Origin: a bacterium
GTDB taxonomy: Bacteria > Hydrothermota > UBA3072 > JAPDKE01
NCBI GenBank assembly: GCA_029258725.1
Contig: JAPDKE010000018.1
Coordinates: forward strand, 1-64,000
Length of the DNA: 64,000 nucleotides
Direction: 5' to 3'
The stretch's first letter is position 1; every line of letters begins with the position of its first letter. A model generated the notes under the pieces. It saw only the letters and a list, made by a program, of their open reading frames with translations. It did not search any database and was not told the origin of the DNA. The translations under genes were made by a program, and so were the position numbers. Positions 35,016 to 42,938 of the stretch are shown piece by piece.

Positions 35016-36980
35016 TTACATTGAAAAATTCGTTCTTATTTTTATCATTATTTTATCATATGTCTCAATAAATTTAGAATTTTCTATATTATATTCCTTT
35101 CCCAGACAGATATAAAAACCTGTTAGATATCTCGGTTCAAAAATAAAAACAGCATTAAATAAAAGATTTTTTTTAGGCTTGCCTTCAATTTTGTTTATAT
35201 TATCAACTTTATATAAAATATACGGTTTAAAGATGAAATTTCTATGAAAATTCAACTCTCCATAATTTTCAAACACTATTAGACTATCATATAACGAATT
35301 AATTAAATTAAAAGAGAAGCCAAGATTAAAAATTTTGCAAAAAGAAAAACGAAGGTCTACAAAGTAGTTTCTTAATTTACTCCCAAGGTAATTACCAAAA
35401 TTGTAATTTATAATCATCCTATTCCAGGATGACAAAAAGTATCCAATAGAAGTTGAATAAGTGAAAGAGCTTGTATTTTCAAACCCCAAATCTTTTAAAT
35501 AATACATGCCATCAAAAGAAGCGCCTATATTAGAAAATAATATAATGGGAAATTTTGTTGTCTGCAAATACACAAAAAAACCGTAGTTTTTATATATATT
35601 TTCAGAATTAAATTTGTTTTGGATAAAATTGTAAATAAAAGAAGGCATGAATGTATAAGAACTTTTATCATATCGGTAATGTAAAAAAGATTGTACTTGT
35701 TTAATTCCCTCAAAATCTATAAGTATATAATTAAAAGGGGAAATAATAAAACTATCTATAGAAGTATAACTTACACCAAGAGAAAGACCAGGCTTTTCAT
35801 ATCTTTCAAACGCTACATAATATAAGTTTTTATTATTATCGAGCCTTTTTGAAGCTTGCAAAGAAAAACTTAATTTTAGTTTCTCATAGTAATTTATGAA
35901 ATCCATTGATGAGAGATTATATCCAATTTCGCTATTCATCAAATAAAATCCAATTTTTGTTGAAGAAAAAGGATTATATGTTGTCCTTATAATTGTTGCA
36001 TTTCCAAGAGAAGCATCGTTTATGAAGAGTGAGATAAGAGATACTTTCTCTGTGGCTGTAAAGAACTTCACACCCCATAACGGTTTTTCAAAATTTCTTG
36101 TTCTTAAAAGAGGGAATGGCATTGAGAGATAATTTGAGCCCTCGGTAAAAAATATTCTTTTCTCAGGATAATCTATTGGAAGCCTCCTTAAGTCAAATTT
36201 AAACATATCTACATCCACCTCTGAAAAATCAGGATGGTATGTTATATCTAAAACTGATTTTGAACCCTGTTTAAATCTTATCGTCCCCCCCCAAGTAAAC
36301 TTGTTAGTTTTATCCTCCTGGGAAAATCTAACACTTGGCATTACATAAAAATTGAAATTTTTATCCTTTTTTATGTAATTAAAATCCAATTTCATTTCGG
36401 CTATATCCTCAATGTAATTCAAACTTGTTGTGGGGAATAAAAACTGCATTTCTCCCTTCTTTGAAATTACTCTACATATTTGTATTCCCCATACGACTTC
36501 TCCATAATTTAATGCATTAAAAGGAATTATAAGAAGTGCTGACCATCCATATTCTGTTTCTTCTGTAAGTGCCTTAACATTGCCATCCCATTCAGTTTCT
36601 CCGAAGATTGAAATCATCTTATCATAGATTGCGCCAAGTGGGTTTACTGCAATATAATACACATCATTTCCTTTCCCATACGGCGCAATTATTATTGCTA
36701 TATTATCTTCTTGGCCCTTAACCATTGCAACAGCGTCTCTTCTTCGTGAATTTGCAGATATACCCTTCTGATAATTTTTTGAGTACACAATGAGCTCCGT
36801 AGGTGTATATGCTATATAAACTATTGAAGAATCAGAGGGATTTTCTTGTAATTTTGGCATCACTGTAGTCAATTTGTATCCAGGCGATTCCTCAACAATT
36901 TTATAGATATCTTCAATATCTTTTATCTTTACGGCATGGATAGATAAAGCTAACATGAACAGAGGCATGAAGCAAGACAT
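35016..36980 (-). CDS. DUF5916-type outer-membrane beta-barrel protein
   Basis: 654 aa, signal peptide at 1-16. The N-terminal third (about 17-185) is a CBM9-like beta domain (A-Y-T-P-T-E-L-I-V-Y; W-S-A-L-L-I-I-P-F). The family hallmark follows (about 245-285): P-D-F-S-E-V-D-V-D and P-E-K-R-I-F-F-T-E-G. The remainder alternates aromatic and polar residues as in a beta-barrel and ends N-F-S-M. Members are predicted outer-membrane proteins of unknown function. It is last in the lanthipeptide operon, 13 nt after the ABC gene, with a GGAGG site. I infer a role in export, immunity or reception of the peptide. Confidence 0.85.
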   Translation of the reverse strand: MSCFMPLFMLALSIHAVKIKDIEDIYKIVEESPGYKLTTVMPKLQENPSDSSIVYIAYTPTELIVYSKNYQKGISANSRRRDAVAMVKGQEDNIAIIIAPYGKGNDVYYIAVNPLGAIYDKMISIFGETEWDGNVKALTEETEYGWSALLIIPFNALNYGEVVWGIQICRVISKKGEMQFLFPTTSLNYIEDIAEMKLDFNYIKKDKNFNFYVMPSVRFSQEDKTNKFTWGGTIRFKQGSKSVLDITYHPDFSEVDVDMFKFDLRRLPIDYPEKRIFFTEGSNYLSMPFPLLRTRNFEKPLWGVKFFTATEKVSLISLFINDASLGNATIIRTTYNPFSSTKIGFYLMNSEIGYNLSSMDFINYYEKLKLSFSLQASKRLDNNKNLYYVAFERYEKPGLSLGVSYTSIDSFIISPFNYILIDFEGIKQVQSFLHYRYDKSSYTFMPSFIYNFIQNKFNSENIYKNYGFFVYLQTTKFPIILFSNIGASFDGMYYLKDLGFENTSSFTYSTSIGYFLSSWNRMIINYNFGNYLGSKLRNYFVDLRFSFCKIFNLGFSFNLINSLYDSLIVFENYGELNFHRNFIFKPYILYKVDNINKIEGKPKKNLLFNAVFIFEPRYLTGFYICLGKEYNIENSKFIETYDKIMIKIRTNFSM

Positions 36981-36993
36981 CGGGCTCCTCCTT

Positions 36994-38526
36994 TCATCTT
37001 AATCTTATGATTTCATCAAAGCAAGCATGAAACTTCTCTCCTCCATGCATAACAACCACTAAGGATTTTCCCTTTGTTTCAGAAAGTATTACATTCATCA
37101 CATCTTCTTTACTCCCTTCATCAATGTTGCTTAAGGGCTCATCAAAAAAGTACACTTCGGCCTGTTTAAGGAGTGTCCTTATAATACAAAATTTCTTTTT
37201 TTCTCCTTCTGATAGTTCAAAGGGGGTTTTCTCTAATTTATTATCAAGACCAAATTTTTCAATAAGTGTTAAAAACTTCCTCTTGTTATTTTCGCTCAAG
37301 ACATTAAAATCCACATTGTCTTTCAATGATCCGGGGATAAACTCCATTGGCATTATCATTGCACTTATATTTTTTAAGTCTGTGAGCTTATAATGTCCCT
37401 CTGGCTCTAAAAATCCGCACATAATATTTAAAAGGGTTGTCTTACCAGAACCATTGGGCCCGGTTATCAAGATTTTCTCCCCCCCTTTTATAGAAAGTGA
37501 GAAATTTTTTATTACGGATCTCTCAGGAAAGCTATAGTTTATCTTATCCAATACTATCTCTTTACCTTCCCAGGATTTTTCTTTTTCTTGGAAAGATTCA
37601 AACTCCTTTAATCTATTTAAATATCCTTTAAGACTCATTAAACGTGGAAAATTCTCAATCAGGCTGGTTATCCCACTTACTCCCCTCCAGAATGCCTGCA
37701 TATATCCAAATAATCCGCCTATGGTTAAAAACCCTAGTATAACACCTATGCCCAATCCAATCAAAACAAAAAATTCCATCAATGACATAAACAGGTCATT
37801 TAATGTTCCATATAGCTTCGTAAATTTTATCTTACTATACAATGCATTTAAGAATCTATCTAAGGCATTGTGAACTTTTTTAAATGATATATCATAAAGA
37901 TTGAAAAGTTTCACAGTTCTATAAGAAGAAACAAGGGTTATTATCTTTTCTCTCAAATTTGCTTCCTTTTCTTTTTCTTGTTCAGAAAATGAGGAAACCT
38001 TTGTGCCAAATTTCCTTGCTAACATATAAATAACCGGGATAATAACCACAAAAATGCAGGTCATTTTCCAAGAAAAATATAATATCAGCGCCAAGGACGT
38101 TATTGCAATAATAAGCGAGCTTAATAAATCGCTTGCCGTATCAATTGCTAAAGAACATAAATTATTTGATTCGTCGTATATCCTAGATGCAAAATACCCA
38201 CTGTTTTTTGAAAGAACAATTTTATAAGGGAAATTGAAATAATATTTTAAAGTCTCCATCGTGAGTTCTTTCAAGATAATGTTTTTCAATCTCTGTATTA
38301 AAAGTGAACTGAAATAATTAATTAAACGCAGGACGCCTCCAAAGAAAATAACAAAAATTCCCAAAAAGATAAAAAATCTTAGATTTTTTCCTAAAATACC
38401 TTTATCAATCAAGAATTTCATAGCCATTGGATCAATAAAAGTTGCGGAAAAATTTATAAAAATAAGAAGCATAGCCAAAAATAATACGAACAATCGATGT
38501 TTCTTTATGATTTTATAAAATATCAT
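36994..38526 (-). CDS. half-size ABC exporter of the lanthipeptide operon
   Basis: 510 aa. Transmembrane domain with about six helices (1-300), then an ATPase domain (about 325-510). Walker A is G-P-N-G-S-G-K-T-T, the signature is L-S-E-G-E-K-K-K-F (variant of LSGGQ), Walker B is V-Y-F-F-D-E-P-L-S-N, and the switch His is in V-V-M-H-G-G. There is no N-terminal C39 peptidase, so it does not trim the leader itself. As a homodimer it would export the modified peptide. Its start lies inside the end of the LanKC gene (14-nt overlap) behind GGGGAGG. Confidence 0.92.
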   Translation of the reverse strand: MIFYKIIKKHRLFVLFLAMLLIFINFSATFIDPMAMKFLIDKGILGKNLRFFIFLGIFVIFFGGVLRLINYFSSLLIQRLKNIILKELTMETLKYYFNFPYKIVLSKNSGYFASRIYDESNNLCSLAIDTASDLLSSLIIAITSLALILYFSWKMTCIFVVIIPVIYMLARKFGTKVSSFSEQEKEKEANLREKIITLVSSYRTVKLFNLYDISFKKVHNALDRFLNALYSKIKFTKLYGTLNDLFMSLMEFFVLIGLGIGVILGFLTIGGLFGYMQAFWRGVSGITSLIENFPRLMSLKGYLNRLKEFESFQEKEKSWEGKEIVLDKINYSFPERSVIKNFSLSIKGGEKILITGPNGSGKTTLLNIMCGFLEPEGHYKLTDLKNISAMIMPMEFIPGSLKDNVDFNVLSENNKRKFLTLIEKFGLDNKLEKTPFELSEGEKKKFCIIRTLLKQAEVYFFDEPLSNIDEGSKEDVMNVILSETKGKSLVVVMHGGEKFHACFDEIIRLR

Positions 38527-41179
38527 AGAAAAACCTCCCCTTTTTCCCTTTTTTTATTAAACGTTCAAAAAAAAGACCTATCCCAGAGGAACCGGTCCCG
38601 TAGTCTGTAGAAATCCTTCCAAGATTTTCCCCAGGGAAGGTTAAACCACTTTCTCTTTTTATACCAAACAGCATAATTCTTCTTGCCACCCAATGGGCTT
38701 CCCTAAGATATTTTTCTTCATCTGTATAAGTAAACATATCCAGGAAGAATTCTCCTATACCTGCCATTCCCATATAAAGTGACGGAGAAATCGAATATTT
38801 TTTTCTTAGATATTCTGCCGCCATCTCAGCCATTTTTTTATAATTTTTTTCTCCGGTTAAATTATAAAACCTTATCAATACGCTTCCGATTCCCGCATTT
38901 CCAAAACGGAAGTAAGGGAGCAATATATTACTTCCTCTATATTTGGACCAGCATATATATTTTTTTCTTTTTATACTATGTGAAATCTCAAAATGAATCA
39001 ATTTTTCAGCAAAACTTAGGAATTTATCATCTTTTGTTTTTGAATACAATCTTAAAAGGAAATAAGCTAATCCAGAAGCACCATGCATAAACCCAAAATA
39101 CACTATGCCATCGGTATTCTCAAAAAAGCATCCATATTTATCTTCTTTTATATTTTTCAGAATATAATAGCCCGCTTCTTGTGCCTTTTCTAAAAATTTT
39201 GTATCCCCTGTTTTTTTGTAAAAGTAAAGAGAAGCCAGTCCACAGCCACAAATACCATAGAAAAGATCAAGACTTTTTAAATAGAGTGGAGATTTATAGC
39301 ATATCTCCATAGCTTTCAAACCAATATCTTTTTGTCCTATCTCATATAATCCAATTGCCACCCCTGCAAGTCCTACTCCTAATCCTGGGGGATAGTTATT
39401 TATGCTAATATTCTCAAACTGCTTTTTTATCCATTCTACTATATTCTTTGGAATTTCGTTATTAATTTCTTTAAGAAATAAACAATTTCCCAATGCGCCA
39501 TATGAGATATTTAGTGGATTTGTTACAAAAATTCTTGGGTCAGATGGAAATAATCTGTCTTTTCTTTGACAAGAAATATTATTTTTTATATATTCTGCAA
39601 TAGAATGAGTAGTTTTTTTCAAAAAATTAATTGAAATTTTATTCTCTTTCTTTTTTCTTTTGTTCCTCAAAATTCGCACATTTTTTATCTTTTTAATTAT
39701 TTCTTTATAAGATTCGGGATTTTTATTTTTTGAAATTAAAAATATTAGATTTTCTATGTCTTGAGGCAATTCTTTGTCTTTTAATATATACGATAGAAAT
39801 TTTCTTTTATTATTTGAGGAGAGCATAAAAAGTTGTTGGATGGGAAATATAAGATTGTAGAGAATATTGCTAACGGCAAAATAATCATCTTTAAAAGTGG
39901 GTTTCTTTAAGTAGTTCTTTTTCTTCCTAACAAAGCCCATCGTTCCAATAGGCATATATGGAAGTCCTTTAACATATGCTCCTTCCAGATCGATTATTTT
40001 AATCGATCTGTCTTTTGGATTATAAATCACATTGTTTGGTGATAGATCTGCGCAAATTATACCATGATCATGCAGTGTTTTCACTGCTTTTATCAAATTT
40101 TCTGAAATTATAGCAAATGTTTCACAAAATTTTTTCCTCGTCTTTTCGTTTAAGTTTGTTTGCAACATAATATTAAATTCTTCTAATGCTCTGTATTCAG
40201 ATAGCGTAAATCCTGGAAGAAATTCAAGAACCAAGAAGTAATGTTCCCATTCTTTAAAAATTTCTATTGCCTTTGGGACATAGGGACATCCTTCTATTTT
40301 TTTAAGTATCTCATATTCTTTTATAAGCAAGCTTACTTCGTCAATTTTAAATTGATCAGTTTTTCCTATAAACGGTCTCCTTTCTTTTATTATAACTTTC
40401 TTTTTTGTTTTTATATCCATAGCTTTATAAACACCCCCAGCGTTTGTGGAAATTATCGGGGAAAGTACTTCATATTTATTATTTAGAATTATTCTTTTGG
40501 GAAAATCTAATCTTTGGGCAAAAGGATCCCTTACCCAAGAGGGCAATTTATAAAAAGGAGTTCGTATATCTTCAACAAACTTACCTTCAGGAGAAATAAT
40601 CCCTGGAATTTTTTCTCCATATACATTCAGCATAAAAATTTTTTTAAATCCTCCGTATCTATAAAAGACCACCCTAGAATCTTTGTAAGGCATATCCGAA
40701 AGAATGAATGGTCCTTCAAAGTTTTTAAGCGATTGGTATAGTTTTTCACATATCCTTTTAAAGAGTTCTATATTTGATGGATAAATTGTAATAAATTTAC
40801 CTGAAGATTCTCTCCCATAATTTCTTGAATTAATAATCTCTAATAGGATTCTGTCTTTAACAACTTTGAAAGCCGTATTTTCCTTAAAGCATACAAGAGC
40901 TGTTTTTCTTAAAATTGCAGAAGCATTAGTAGGTGTGGATGAAATATGTATTTTGAAACCTTGATTCGGTATCTCGGTCTTTTTAGGAAAAAAGTAGTAC
41001 CAGATATCCTCTTCTATTACTCCCCAATCCTGCGGAACAAAGGACTCTATTTCATTCCGGTAATTGTGGTTTTTCGGAATATAATTGCTTAAAGTTTCGT
41101 AGAATTCAGGGGAAACCATCATAAATAACATTTCATCTTCAATCCCCAATCTGCGATCGATATTACCCTTCTTATTCAT
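38513..41179 (-). CDS. class III lanthipeptide synthetase (LanKC)
   Basis: 888 aa in three domains. The N-terminal phosphothreonine-lyase-like domain (about 1-220) has N-Q-G-F-K-I-H-I-S-S-T-P, S-G-K-F-I-T-I-Y-P, P-F-I-L-S-D and F-Y-R-Y-G-G-F. The Ser/Thr kinase (about 235-500) has G-G-V-Y-K-A, I-I-K-E, the catalytic loop C-A-D-L-S-P-N-N-V-I-Y and I-I-D-L-E-G-A. The LanC-like cyclase (about 555-888) has G-F-M-H-G-A-S-G-L-A, but the zinc positions read F-R-F-G-N-A-G and L-Y-M-G-M-A-G. With no Cys/Cys-His ligands it is class III, not class IV. It phosphorylates Ser/Thr, eliminates phosphate and forms lanthionine or labionin. Confidence 0.95.
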   Translation of the reverse strand: MNKKGNIDRRLGIEDEMLFMMVSPEFYETLSNYIPKNHNYRNEIESFVPQDWGVIEEDIWYYFFPKKTEIPNQGFKIHISSTPTNASAILRKTALVCFKENTAFKVVKDRILLEIINSRNYGRESSGKFITIYPSNIELFKRICEKLYQSLKNFEGPFILSDMPYKDSRVVFYRYGGFKKIFMLNVYGEKIPGIISPEGKFVEDIRTPFYKLPSWVRDPFAQRLDFPKRIILNNKYEVLSPIISTNAGGVYKAMDIKTKKKVIIKERRPFIGKTDQFKIDEVSLLIKEYEILKKIEGCPYVPKAIEIFKEWEHYFLVLEFLPGFTLSEYRALEEFNIMLQTNLNEKTRKKFCETFAIISENLIKAVKTLHDHGIICADLSPNNVIYNPKDRSIKIIDLEGAYVKGLPYMPIGTMGFVRKKKNYLKKPTFKDDYFAVSNILYNLIFPIQQLFMLSSNNKRKFLSYILKDKELPQDIENLIFLISKNKNPESYKEIIKKIKNVRILRNKRKKKENKISINFLKKTTHSIAEYIKNNISCQRKDRLFPSDPRIFVTNPLNISYGALGNCLFLKEINNEIPKNIVEWIKKQFENISINNYPPGLGVGLAGVAIGLYEIGQKDIGLKAMEICYKSPLYLKSLDLFYGICGCGLASLYFYKKTGDTKFLEKAQEAGYYILKNIKEDKYGCFFENTDGIVYFGFMHGASGLAYFLLRLYSKTKDDKFLSFAEKLIHFEISHSIKRKKYICWSKYRGSNILLPYFRFGNAGIGSVLIRFYNLTGEKNYKKMAEMAAEYLRKKYSISPSLYMGMAGIGEFFLDMFTYTDEEKYLREAHWVARRIMLFGIKRESGLTFPGENLGRISTDYGTGSSGIGLFFERLIKKGKKGRFFYDIL

Positions 41180-41218: not shown

Positions 41219-41245
41219 GTGAGGGAGCTAAAATAGCCCCCTCAC
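41219..41245 (-). terminator. strong hairpin between precursor and LanKC genes (attenuator)
   Basis: A 12-bp inverted repeat, GTGAGGGGGCTA paired with TAGCTCCCTCAC (one G-U), with a 3-nt loop. It begins 10 nt after the precursor stop. It is followed on the minus strand by TTATTTCC, not a full T-run, so partial termination or an mRNA-stabilising end is more likely than a complete stop. This would keep peptide mRNA in excess over enzyme mRNA. Confidence 0.8.
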
Positions 41246-41255
41246 GTTTAACGAC

Positions 41256-41360
41256 TCATCGATTGCAAGTGATACAGCCAACGCTGATAGTTGAAGAAAT
41301 AGGCCTGTTGGAGGACACGGTTTCCTTTTTCAAAGTTTGCAAAGCTAAAACCTTAACCAT
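41256..41360 (-). CDS. class III lanthipeptide precursor peptide, 34 aa
   Basis: ATG at 41360, TGA at 41258-41256, ribosome site AGGAGG five bases upstream. Residues 1-13 read M-V-K-V-L-A-L-Q-T-L-K-K-E. The V-L-A-L-Q-T-L part fits the hydrophobic L-x-L-Q leader motif recognised by class III synthetases. Residues 14-34 hold eight Ser/Thr and two Cys. S23-T-I-S26-V-G-C29 is an exact S-x2-S-x2-C labionin/lanthionine motif, and a second Cys (C32) sits in I-T-C-N-R at the end. The leader is short for the class. It lies directly upstream of LanKC under a sigma-54 promoter. The final ring pattern and cleavage site are unknown. Confidence 0.9.
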   Translation of the reverse strand: MVKVLALQTLKKETVSSNRPISSTISVGCITCNR

Positions 41361-41365
41361 AATAA

Positions 41366-41387
41366 CCTCCTTTCTTTTTCGGTTTGC
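41366..41387 (-). repeat. repeated ribosome-site module before the precursor gene
   Basis: CAAACCG followed by a purine run and GAAAGGAGG, matching the module before LanKC. Possibly a shared translation enhancer or the trace of a local duplication. Confidence 0.5.
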
Positions 41388-41480: not shown

Positions 41481-41499
41481 AATGCAATTTTCGTGCCAA
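41481..41499 (-). promoter_or_regulatory. sigma-54 (-24/-12) promoter of the lanthipeptide operon
   Basis: Minus strand TTGGCACGAAAATTGCA: the -24 GG (41497-41496) and -12 GC (41485-41484) are ten bases apart, and every conserved position of TTGGCACG-N4-TTGC is matched. Transcription should begin near 41472, leaving a leader of about 110 nt before the precursor ATG. Such promoters are silent without an AAA+ activator, and one is encoded just upstream. Confidence 0.93.
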
Positions 41500-41560
41500 T
41501 TTTTATAAACTTTTAGAGCGTTATCAATCAATGGGAACTTAAAATTTCTAAAATCTTATA

Positions 41561-41579
41561 CTGACAACAAGGTTGGCTA
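41561..41579 (-). promoter_or_regulatory. activator site 1 (imperfect)
   Basis: CTGACAAC-AAG-GTTGGCTA, an imperfect copy of the perfect palindrome at 41667. Centre about 74 bp upstream of the -24 element. Confidence 0.65.
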
Positions 41580-41645: not shown

Positions 41646-41664
41646 ATGTCAATAAGGTTGATAG
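41646..41664 (-). promoter_or_regulatory. activator site 2 (imperfect)
   Basis: ATGTCAAT-AAG-GTTGATAG. It shares the AAG spacer and GTTG half-site with the other copies, and its centre is 21 bp (two helical turns) from site 3. Confidence 0.6.
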
Positions 41665-41666
41665 CA

Positions 41667-41685
41667 TTGACAACAAGGTTGTCAA
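41667..41685 (-). promoter_or_regulatory. activator site 3 (perfect palindrome)
   Basis: TTGACAAC-AAG-GTTGTCAA: 8-bp half-sites are exact reverse complements around a 3-bp spacer. Together with sites 1 and 2 it forms the expected upstream enhancer for a sigma-54 activator with a Fis-type HTH. It begins 11 nt after the stop codon of that activator's gene. Confidence 0.8.
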
Positions 41686-41696
41686 TCATTCTATTT

Positions 41697-42938
41697 TTAT
41701 TCCATTTTCAGAGATTTCAACATTTTTATCAATCCCCATCTTGATATTCCCAGTTCTTTTGCTGCCCTTGTCTTGTTTCCTTTGTGTTTTTCAAGCGCCT
41801 TCCTTATCTCTTTCTTCTTTAATACCTCTATCTTTTCTGAAAGTGTTCTCGGTATCTTCTCTTCCGGTTTTCTCATCTTCTCTGGAAGGTCCTCTATTCC
41901 TATGATTTTATCCTTTGATCCCTCCTTCATCATTATTAAAAATTCAATTACTCTCTCAAGCTCTCTTACATTGCCAGGCCAAGAATAAGATCTCAATGCT
42001 TCCATTGCTTCTTTTGAAAAGATTATATCTCCCTTATGTTTCTCAAGAAAGTATGTGATAAATTCATCAAAATATTCTATCCTCTCTCTTAAAGGGGGTA
42101 ACCATATCTCCACCCCCGTTATTCTATAATATAAATCCTCTCTAAATGCCTTTTTATTCACGAGTTCCTTCAAATCAGCATTTGTAGCACATACGAGTTT
42201 AAAATCCACTTTCTTTCCTTTTATAGCACCTACCCTCCATATTTCTCTATCCTCTATCACTCTTAACAACTTTCCCTGTAATTCAAGGGGCATATCGCCT
42301 ATCTCATCAAGAAAAACAGTCCCATTATCCGCTATCTCGAACTTTCCAGGCCTTCCCTTCTTATCTGCCCCGGTAAACGCTCCAGGCTCATAACCGAACA
42401 ATTCTGCTTCTGCAAGATCTCTTGGTATAGATGTACAATTCACAGGCACAAAATTACCACTTCTTCCTGCCTCTTTATGTATCGCTCTCGCAAGAACCTC
42501 CTTGCCCACCCCACTTTCTCCATGAATAAGCACAGGAACGTTACTTCTTGCCCCGATTCTTGCAAGTTTTTTTACTTCTTCTGGTATTCCCGGAATTTCA
42601 TCAATAGAATAATCGAAAGGAAGGTCCGTTACCAGTCTTTTGGGTGGTTTTTCTCTTCTAAAGCATAAAATATACCCTTCTTCAATCGGTATACTTTGAA
42701 AAATAAAGTAATTACGAAAGTTTCCTTTTTCCCAAACTACTTCTATTTCCTCCTGCTCCGTCTTCCACGCCTCTTTCGGAAGTAAAGTCCCTACCTCATT
42801 TATGCACTTCCCTTCAGCATTTTTCAATCCCAAGTGATTCTCTGCCTCCACAGAACAATCAATCACTTTTCCACCTTTATCAATCACAATAAAGAATATC
42901 CCTACATTTTCCAAGATTATCTTTTCATATCCCCTCAT
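41697..42938 (-). CDS. sigma-54-dependent activator (PAS-AAA+-HTH) controlling the lanthipeptide operon
   Basis: 413 aa. PAS-like sensor about 1-95 (F-F-I-V-I-D-K-G-G-K-V-I-D-C). AAA+ domain about 110-340: Walker A G-E-S-G-V-G-K-E, sigma-54 contact loop G-A-F-T-G-A, Walker B V-F-L-D-E-I-G-D, arginine-finger region F-R-E-D-L-Y-Y-R. C-terminal Fis-type HTH: N-K-T-R-A-A-K-E-L-G-I-S-R-W-G-L. There is no receiver domain, so activity is probably set by a ligand or redox state at the PAS domain or by the small upstream protein. Good GGAGG site before the ATG. Confidence 0.95.
   Translation of the reverse strand: MRGYEKIILENVGIFFIVIDKGGKVIDCSVEAENHLGLKNAEGKCINEVGTLLPKEAWKTEQEEIEVVWEKGNFRNYFIFQSIPIEEGYILCFRREKPPKRLVTDLPFDYSIDEIPGIPEEVKKLARIGARSNVPVLIHGESGVGKEVLARAIHKEAGRSGNFVPVNCTSIPRDLAEAELFGYEPGAFTGADKKGRPGKFEIADNGTVFLDEIGDMPLELQGKLLRVIEDREIWRVGAIKGKKVDFKLVCATNADLKELVNKKAFREDLYYRITGVEIWLPPLRERIEYFDEFITYFLEKHKGDIIFSKEAMEALRSYSWPGNVRELERVIEFLIMMKEGSKDKIIGIEDLPEKMRKPEEKIPRTLSEKIEVLKKKEIRKALEKHKGNKTRAAKELGISRWGLIKMLKSLKME

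Follow-up and report, generated by a model that had tools for sequence, protein, structure and literature searches.

A compact class III lanthipeptide precursor beside its synthetase in candidate division WOR-3, with an apparent sigma-54 promoter

In a 64,000-nucleotide stretch of a genome placed by phylum kinship in candidate division WOR-3 (hereafter the window), a frame of only 34 residues precedes a gene for a class III lanthionine synthetase (LanKC). This arrangement raises the question of whether so short a frame encodes a lanthipeptide precursor and, if so, how its synthetase would recognise it and what would switch the operon on. Our best explanation as a whole, to which we assign a probability of roughly 0.88, is that of a normal class III precursor that docks on its synthetase as ThurA1 does and is exported, from an operon with sigma-54 activation and an intercistronic hairpin.

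The precursor gene and its relatives

The precursor, its ribosome site and the synthetase gene are arranged as follows.

41256..41360, minus strand: predicted class III lanthipeptide precursor, 34 aa, reading MVKVLALQTLKKETVSSNRPISSTISVGCITCNR
41365..41373, minus strand: ribosome binding site AAAGGAGGT of the precursor, directly 5' of its ATG
38513..41179, minus strand: class III lanthionine synthetase LanKC, 888 aa, with lyase, kinase and LanC-like domains

The frame, strand, coordinates, 34-residue length and ribosome site given in the initial annotation were all found again, as were the motifs V4-L5-A6-L7-Q8 and S23-x2-S26-x2-C29 and a second cysteine, C32. The core ring motif, S23-TI-S26-VG-C29, fits the pattern S-x2-S-x(2-5)-C. 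Eight Ser/Thr had been placed in the C-terminal half of the peptide; that number is reached over residues 14-34, whereas the C-terminal half itself (18-34) contains five. LanKC is encoded on the same strand, its start codon 181 bases after the beginning of the frame, and the genome has no second copy of the frame. When a motif expression combining an LxLQ start with [ST]xx[ST]x(2-5)C was run over the 64-kb window and over random sequence, the precursor ORF was the only match in the window, compared with a chance expectation of 0.27 per random 64 kb and thus of ~0.001 in the ~500-base gap ahead of LanKC. The NCBIfam class III lanthipeptide model NF038154 (lanthi_III_a) scores the precursor at 22.6 bits, marginally above its curated cut-off of 22, the leader-to-core stretch being shorter in the precursor; two sister class III models gave scores under their own cut-offs, so that one of three models passed, narrowly. 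Because a curated NCBI model scores the precursor above its cut-off, the earlier description of it as hidden was an overstatement. Like the morphogenetic class III lanthipeptides SapB and AmfS, the system combines an N-terminal LxLQ-type motif, a LanKC and an ABC exporter, but the precursor has one ring motif instead of two and gave no match to the SapB/AmfS model NF033212, which places it outside that family.

A search of the 147 genomes of the phylum set for LanKC homologues returned eight, counting the genome that holds the window. All seven other LanKC-bearing genomes encode, upstream of LanKC, LxLQ peptides of 33-57 aa that have the motif at the N-terminus and are preceded by a good ribosome site; a locus may have as many as three of them. 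The condition that would have refuted the initial annotation, a frame kept in no relative with the same LanKC, did not arise. Most of these peptides also contain an SxxS...C ring motif, which bears out the proposal of a class III precursor with an SxxSxxC motif, and the motif of the window precursor is aligned in G002, G023 and G046. The closest precursor, MNAVLALQKLEEVTGSSIKLSSLLSIGCVCVNE, is encoded at a syntenic locus in G002 and is 48% identical. This pair shows 12 synonymous codon differences, covering every VLALQ codon (V4-Q8) and L10, and such recoding argues strongly that the peptide is under selection, in a comparison where synonymous sites are saturated. The shortness of the frame, and the fact that the motif expression alone yields 0.27 random matches per 64 kb, could be read as signs of a chance ORF that gives no product. 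We consider this extremely improbable and reject it, given the position of the frame on the same strand directly 5' of LanKC, its ribosome site, the match to a curated family model, the matching peptides kept in all LanKC-bearing relatives and the synonymous recoding.

By its sequence, therefore, the 34-residue ORF is a genuine, ordinary class III lanthipeptide precursor, and the precursor and LanKC together are a further representative of the known class III lanthipeptides, one that adds a compact precursor-synthetase pair from candidate division WOR-3. No paper pairing lanthipeptides with WOR-3 was found in the literature searched, which covers a minority of subscription journals. As the pair is small and its leader register (see below) is conserved, it should be easy to reconstitute.

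The locus of G043 (L016:10351-11031) contains three tandem precursors with identical ribosome sites and near-identical leaders (MKKVLRLQKVNDKKGGKPRP) but quite different cores, and resembles a diversifying array.

Leader recognition and ring chemistry

The window LanKC scores 693 bits against the class III model NF038151 (cut-off 575) and falls under the cut-off of the class IV model. The positions of the LanC zinc ligands (Cys, Cys-His) are occupied by R758, Y802 and M803 and there is no CHG motif; a LanC domain that lacks zinc ligands agrees with class III. In G002 the LanKC gene is split (L015:5464-8146) into two overlapping frames of 511 and 386 aa, which may reflect a frameshift, an assembly error or a two-piece enzyme.

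The initial annotation had described the leader as very short and its binding determinant as minimal. We examined 80 LanKC loci gathered from the genome collection by an alignment-based scan (a single-sequence scan of the genome contigs gave no matches), of which 46 have a recognisable precursor no more than 2 kb upstream. LxLQ begins at residue 5 in 30 of these 46 loci and at residue 4 in a further eight (38/46 together), and the spacing from the Gln to the first ring Ser/Thr, 15 in the window precursor, equals the median of the 42 measurable cases. Precursors of 34 aa or less occur in 8 of the 46 loci. The leader, as judged from this survey, is canonical, and the total length alone lies toward the short end; the earlier comparison had set the position of the motif against total leader lengths.

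A leader-bound LanKC structure has been published for the ThurKC-ThurA1 complex (andalusicin, Bacillus thuringiensis), in which the leader makes contacts through Met-22, Val-19, Leu-18, Leu-16 and Gln-15, while Leu-13 is dispensable (PMC10604976). ThurA1 residues M-22, V-19, L-18, L-16, Q-15 and L-13 correspond in identical register to M1, V4, L5, L7, Q8 and L10 of the window precursor, and core residue +1 to S23; on this register the leader would span residues ~1-22 and the core ~23-34. The ThurKC leader-pocket residues R112, Y243, E258, W302 and F306 align with R123, Y251, E266, W311 and F315 of the window LanKC, and the catalytic lyase residue Lys117 aligns with K128, all six being invariant across seven aligned WOR-3 synthetases; Tyr148 aligns with F158. 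(For this mapping the PDB chain numbering was shifted by three residues, as the alignment indicates.) The two systems thus have in common the leader register and the leader-contact residues, as well as a class III synthetase without zinc ligands and a cluster in which no leader protease is found. The window system differs in its single short precursor, whose core contains few Ser/Thr, in its sigma-54-type promoter and in its diderm host, and no methyltransferase was seen in it.

An unusually short leader, on which LanKC recognition would depend through a minimal determinant, is accordingly very improbable: the modest total length, found in few of the surveyed precursors, speaks for it, but the motif position, the median Gln-Ser spacing, the ThurA1 register and the conserved pocket all speak against it, and the 46-locus survey led us to reject the idea. 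To take an LxLQ at residue 5 as the sign of an unusual leader was tempting and is now corrected. The canonical leader (M1 to ~S22) would instead bind the adjacent LanKC in the way that ThurA1 binds ThurKC, docking as a short helix, via M1, V4, L5, L7 and Q8, into the groove that separates the kinase N-lobe from the lyase domain.

Once docked, the precursor would have its core Ser/Thr phosphorylated and then eliminated by LanKC, after which S23, S26 and C29 would be joined, without zinc, into a labionin or lanthionine ring. The SxxSxnC motif can give labionin or, in some class III peptides, lanthionine (PMC7268733). A DFE kinase segment has been tied in the literature to labionin formers, a rule that rests on few enzymes; this position reads DLE in the window LanKC, whereas the relatives have a DFE-type consensus. 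The ring may therefore be of either type, DLE at the DFE position leaving both possible, and C32 may either remain unlinked or close a second ring. Plain lanthionine instead of labionin, or two lanthionines via C29 and C32, is a serious alternative to which we give somewhat less than even odds: the DLE segment, the second Cys and the lanthionine-yielding precedents point toward it, but the ring motif suits labionin equally and the kinase-segment rule is drawn from few enzymes.

A sigma-54 promoter, its candidate activator and an intercistronic hairpin

Upstream of the precursor, and between it and LanKC, lie the following elements.

41483..41499, minus strand: sigma-54 (-24/-12) promoter TTGGCACGAAAATTGCA, between the precursor and the next upstream gene
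41562..41577, no strand assigned: enhancer-like site 3, a sequence pattern
41647..41662, no strand assigned: enhancer-like site 2, a degenerate copy, a sequence pattern
41667..41686, no strand assigned: enhancer-like site 1, palindrome TTGACAACCTTGTTGTCAA, a sequence pattern
41697..42938, minus strand: sigma-54 enhancer-binding protein, 413 aa, with PAS-like N-terminus, AAA+ domain and Fis-type HTH; probable operon activator
41219..41245, minus strand: 12-bp stem-loop between precursor and LanKC (-21.3 kcal/mol, z -4.5)

The promoter is the only exact match to TTGGCAC-N5-TTGCW in the 2.1-Mb assembly, where sites with one mismatch are common. RpoN is encoded in the genome, and the neighbouring enhancer-binding protein carries Sigma54_activat and HTH_8 domains. 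Its PAS-like N-terminus gave weak matches (E 0.001-0.002, below the cut-off, for the G002 orthologue); the structure model (pLDDT 47) was too poor for a fold search, although its order of strands and helices is suggestive of a PAS domain. G002 has an orthologue of 56% identity, likewise adjacent, and its promoter retains 16 consecutive identical bases amid intergenic sequence that has otherwise diverged. The enhancer-like cores read AAC-N3-GTT or nearly so. Their positions are 41680, 41659 and 41574 in the window and 4998, 5019 and 5100 in G002, with spacings of 21/85 and 21/81, respectively, and in each genome the promoter follows after a further 75 nt. Searched as an exact pattern, the palindromic copy, TTGACAACCTTGTTGTCA, has no second match in the genome. 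Promoter, RpoN, enhancer-binding protein and upstream sites, the sequence-level hallmarks of a sigma-54 operon, are thus all present, and the operon appears to be switched on from a sigma-54 promoter by an activator encoded next to it. Transcription would start there once the PAS-like enhancer-binding protein, seated on the three upstream sites, is activated.

It is unlikely, in our estimate, that a sigma-70-type promoter reads the operon and that the activator serves other genes. Most relatives do lack the sigma-54 arrangement, which among WOR-3 LanKC loci is confined to the window and G002; with roughly twelve further enhancer-binding proteins encoded in the genome, sigma-54 does not serve the lanthipeptide operon alone and the neighbour need not be its activator; and sigma-70-like matches occur near 41499-41527. 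These matches are weak, however, and their number is near the chance expectation, while the perfect sigma-54 site is unique in the genome and is kept together with the enhancer spacing in G002 despite intergenic divergence. Sigma-54 control as a general class III trait is rejected, since among the 80 loci a site with up to two mismatches upstream of LanKC was found in the G002 record only. Five Luteibacter species (loci L055, L057, L060, L066, L075) encode an enhancer-binding protein ~35% identical, ~1.5 kb upstream of the class III precursors; no good -24/-12 promoter was found between the two in these loci and hence we claim no link.

An enhancer-binding protein and a -24/-12 promoter before a biosynthetic operon are also described for natural product genes of bacteria under sigma-54 (PMC7910581), in a paper that covers polyketide and non-ribosomal peptide genes and in its text says nothing of lanthipeptides or lantibiotics. 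The titles and abstracts of the few papers that pair sigma-54 with lanthipeptides, in a search that covered a minority of subscription journals, do not describe such control, and the sigma-54 wiring of a lanthipeptide operon is apparently unreported. If the wiring predicted here is true, this would be a lanthipeptide operon on an enhancer-dependent promoter, off until signalled, an arrangement undescribed in the literature searched, as far as those titles and abstracts extend. We consider the sigma-54 cassette, common to two genomes, the part that deserves specialist attention.

Strong hairpins occur at the place of the stem-loop in five of the eight loci (the window, G002, G023, G031 and G046), the sequences of the four relatives being unrelated; the hairpin is weak in G043 and G041, and G037 has LanKC immediately after its last precursor. 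The stem-loop is probably a partial terminator or a transcript stabiliser that sets the precursor-to-enzyme ratio, and it would keep the precursor transcript above that of the enzyme.

Export and envelope partners

Two further genes follow LanKC on the same strand.

36994..38526, minus strand: ABC transporter (membrane and ATPase), 510 aa, no peptidase domain; probable exporter
35016..36980, minus strand: 654-aa protein with signal-like N-terminus, distant CBM9/DUF5916-type kin; probable envelope partner

The LanKC and ABC genes overlap by 14 bases and the gene for the 654-aa protein starts 13 bases after the latter. The adjacent transporter would export the product. No leader protease was recognised in the cluster, and an unclustered protease has been reported for ThurA1; as the transporter lacks a peptidase domain, the leader would probably be cleaved off by an unclustered protease here too.

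The 654-aa protein is 28% identical over 334 residues to a 740-aa protein of G002, which in turn shares 52% identity with a partial, CBM9_1-like protein of G031; its structure model (pLDDT 31) was too poor for a fold search. The protein could conceivably take part in sensing or in transfer across the outer membrane. The envelope protein is DUF5916-like in the window, whereas in G023, G046 and G037 genes for OMP_b-brl_3/TonB-receptor-like barrels lie downstream of the ABC exporter:

L011:2134-4392, strand not given: OMP_b-brl_3/TonB-receptor-like barrel gene
L013:12313-14556, strand not given: OMP_b-brl_3/TonB-receptor-like barrel gene
L014:2720-4924, strand not given: OMP_b-brl_3/TonB-receptor-like barrel gene

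From its type and position, the barrel protein is a possible outer-membrane partner for the peptide in these three WOR-3 genomes. The fuller picture, of an operon in an uncultured diderm phylum that depends strictly on sigma-54 and on a dedicated PAS-type activator beside it, and that works with an envelope protein which possibly carries the peptide across the outer membrane, is tentative, with chances that we place just short of even.

Between the ABC and outer-membrane barrel genes, two WOR-3 genomes encode second, longer precursors of 58-59 aa (L011:4403-4582, minus strand; L013:12110-12286, plus strand). Each has two Ser-rich, Cys-ended segments with a Lys/Arg-rich linker between them (CETSKKGKKKRRINLKSSLSIKC), a layout that suggests two cores or a cleavable tail.
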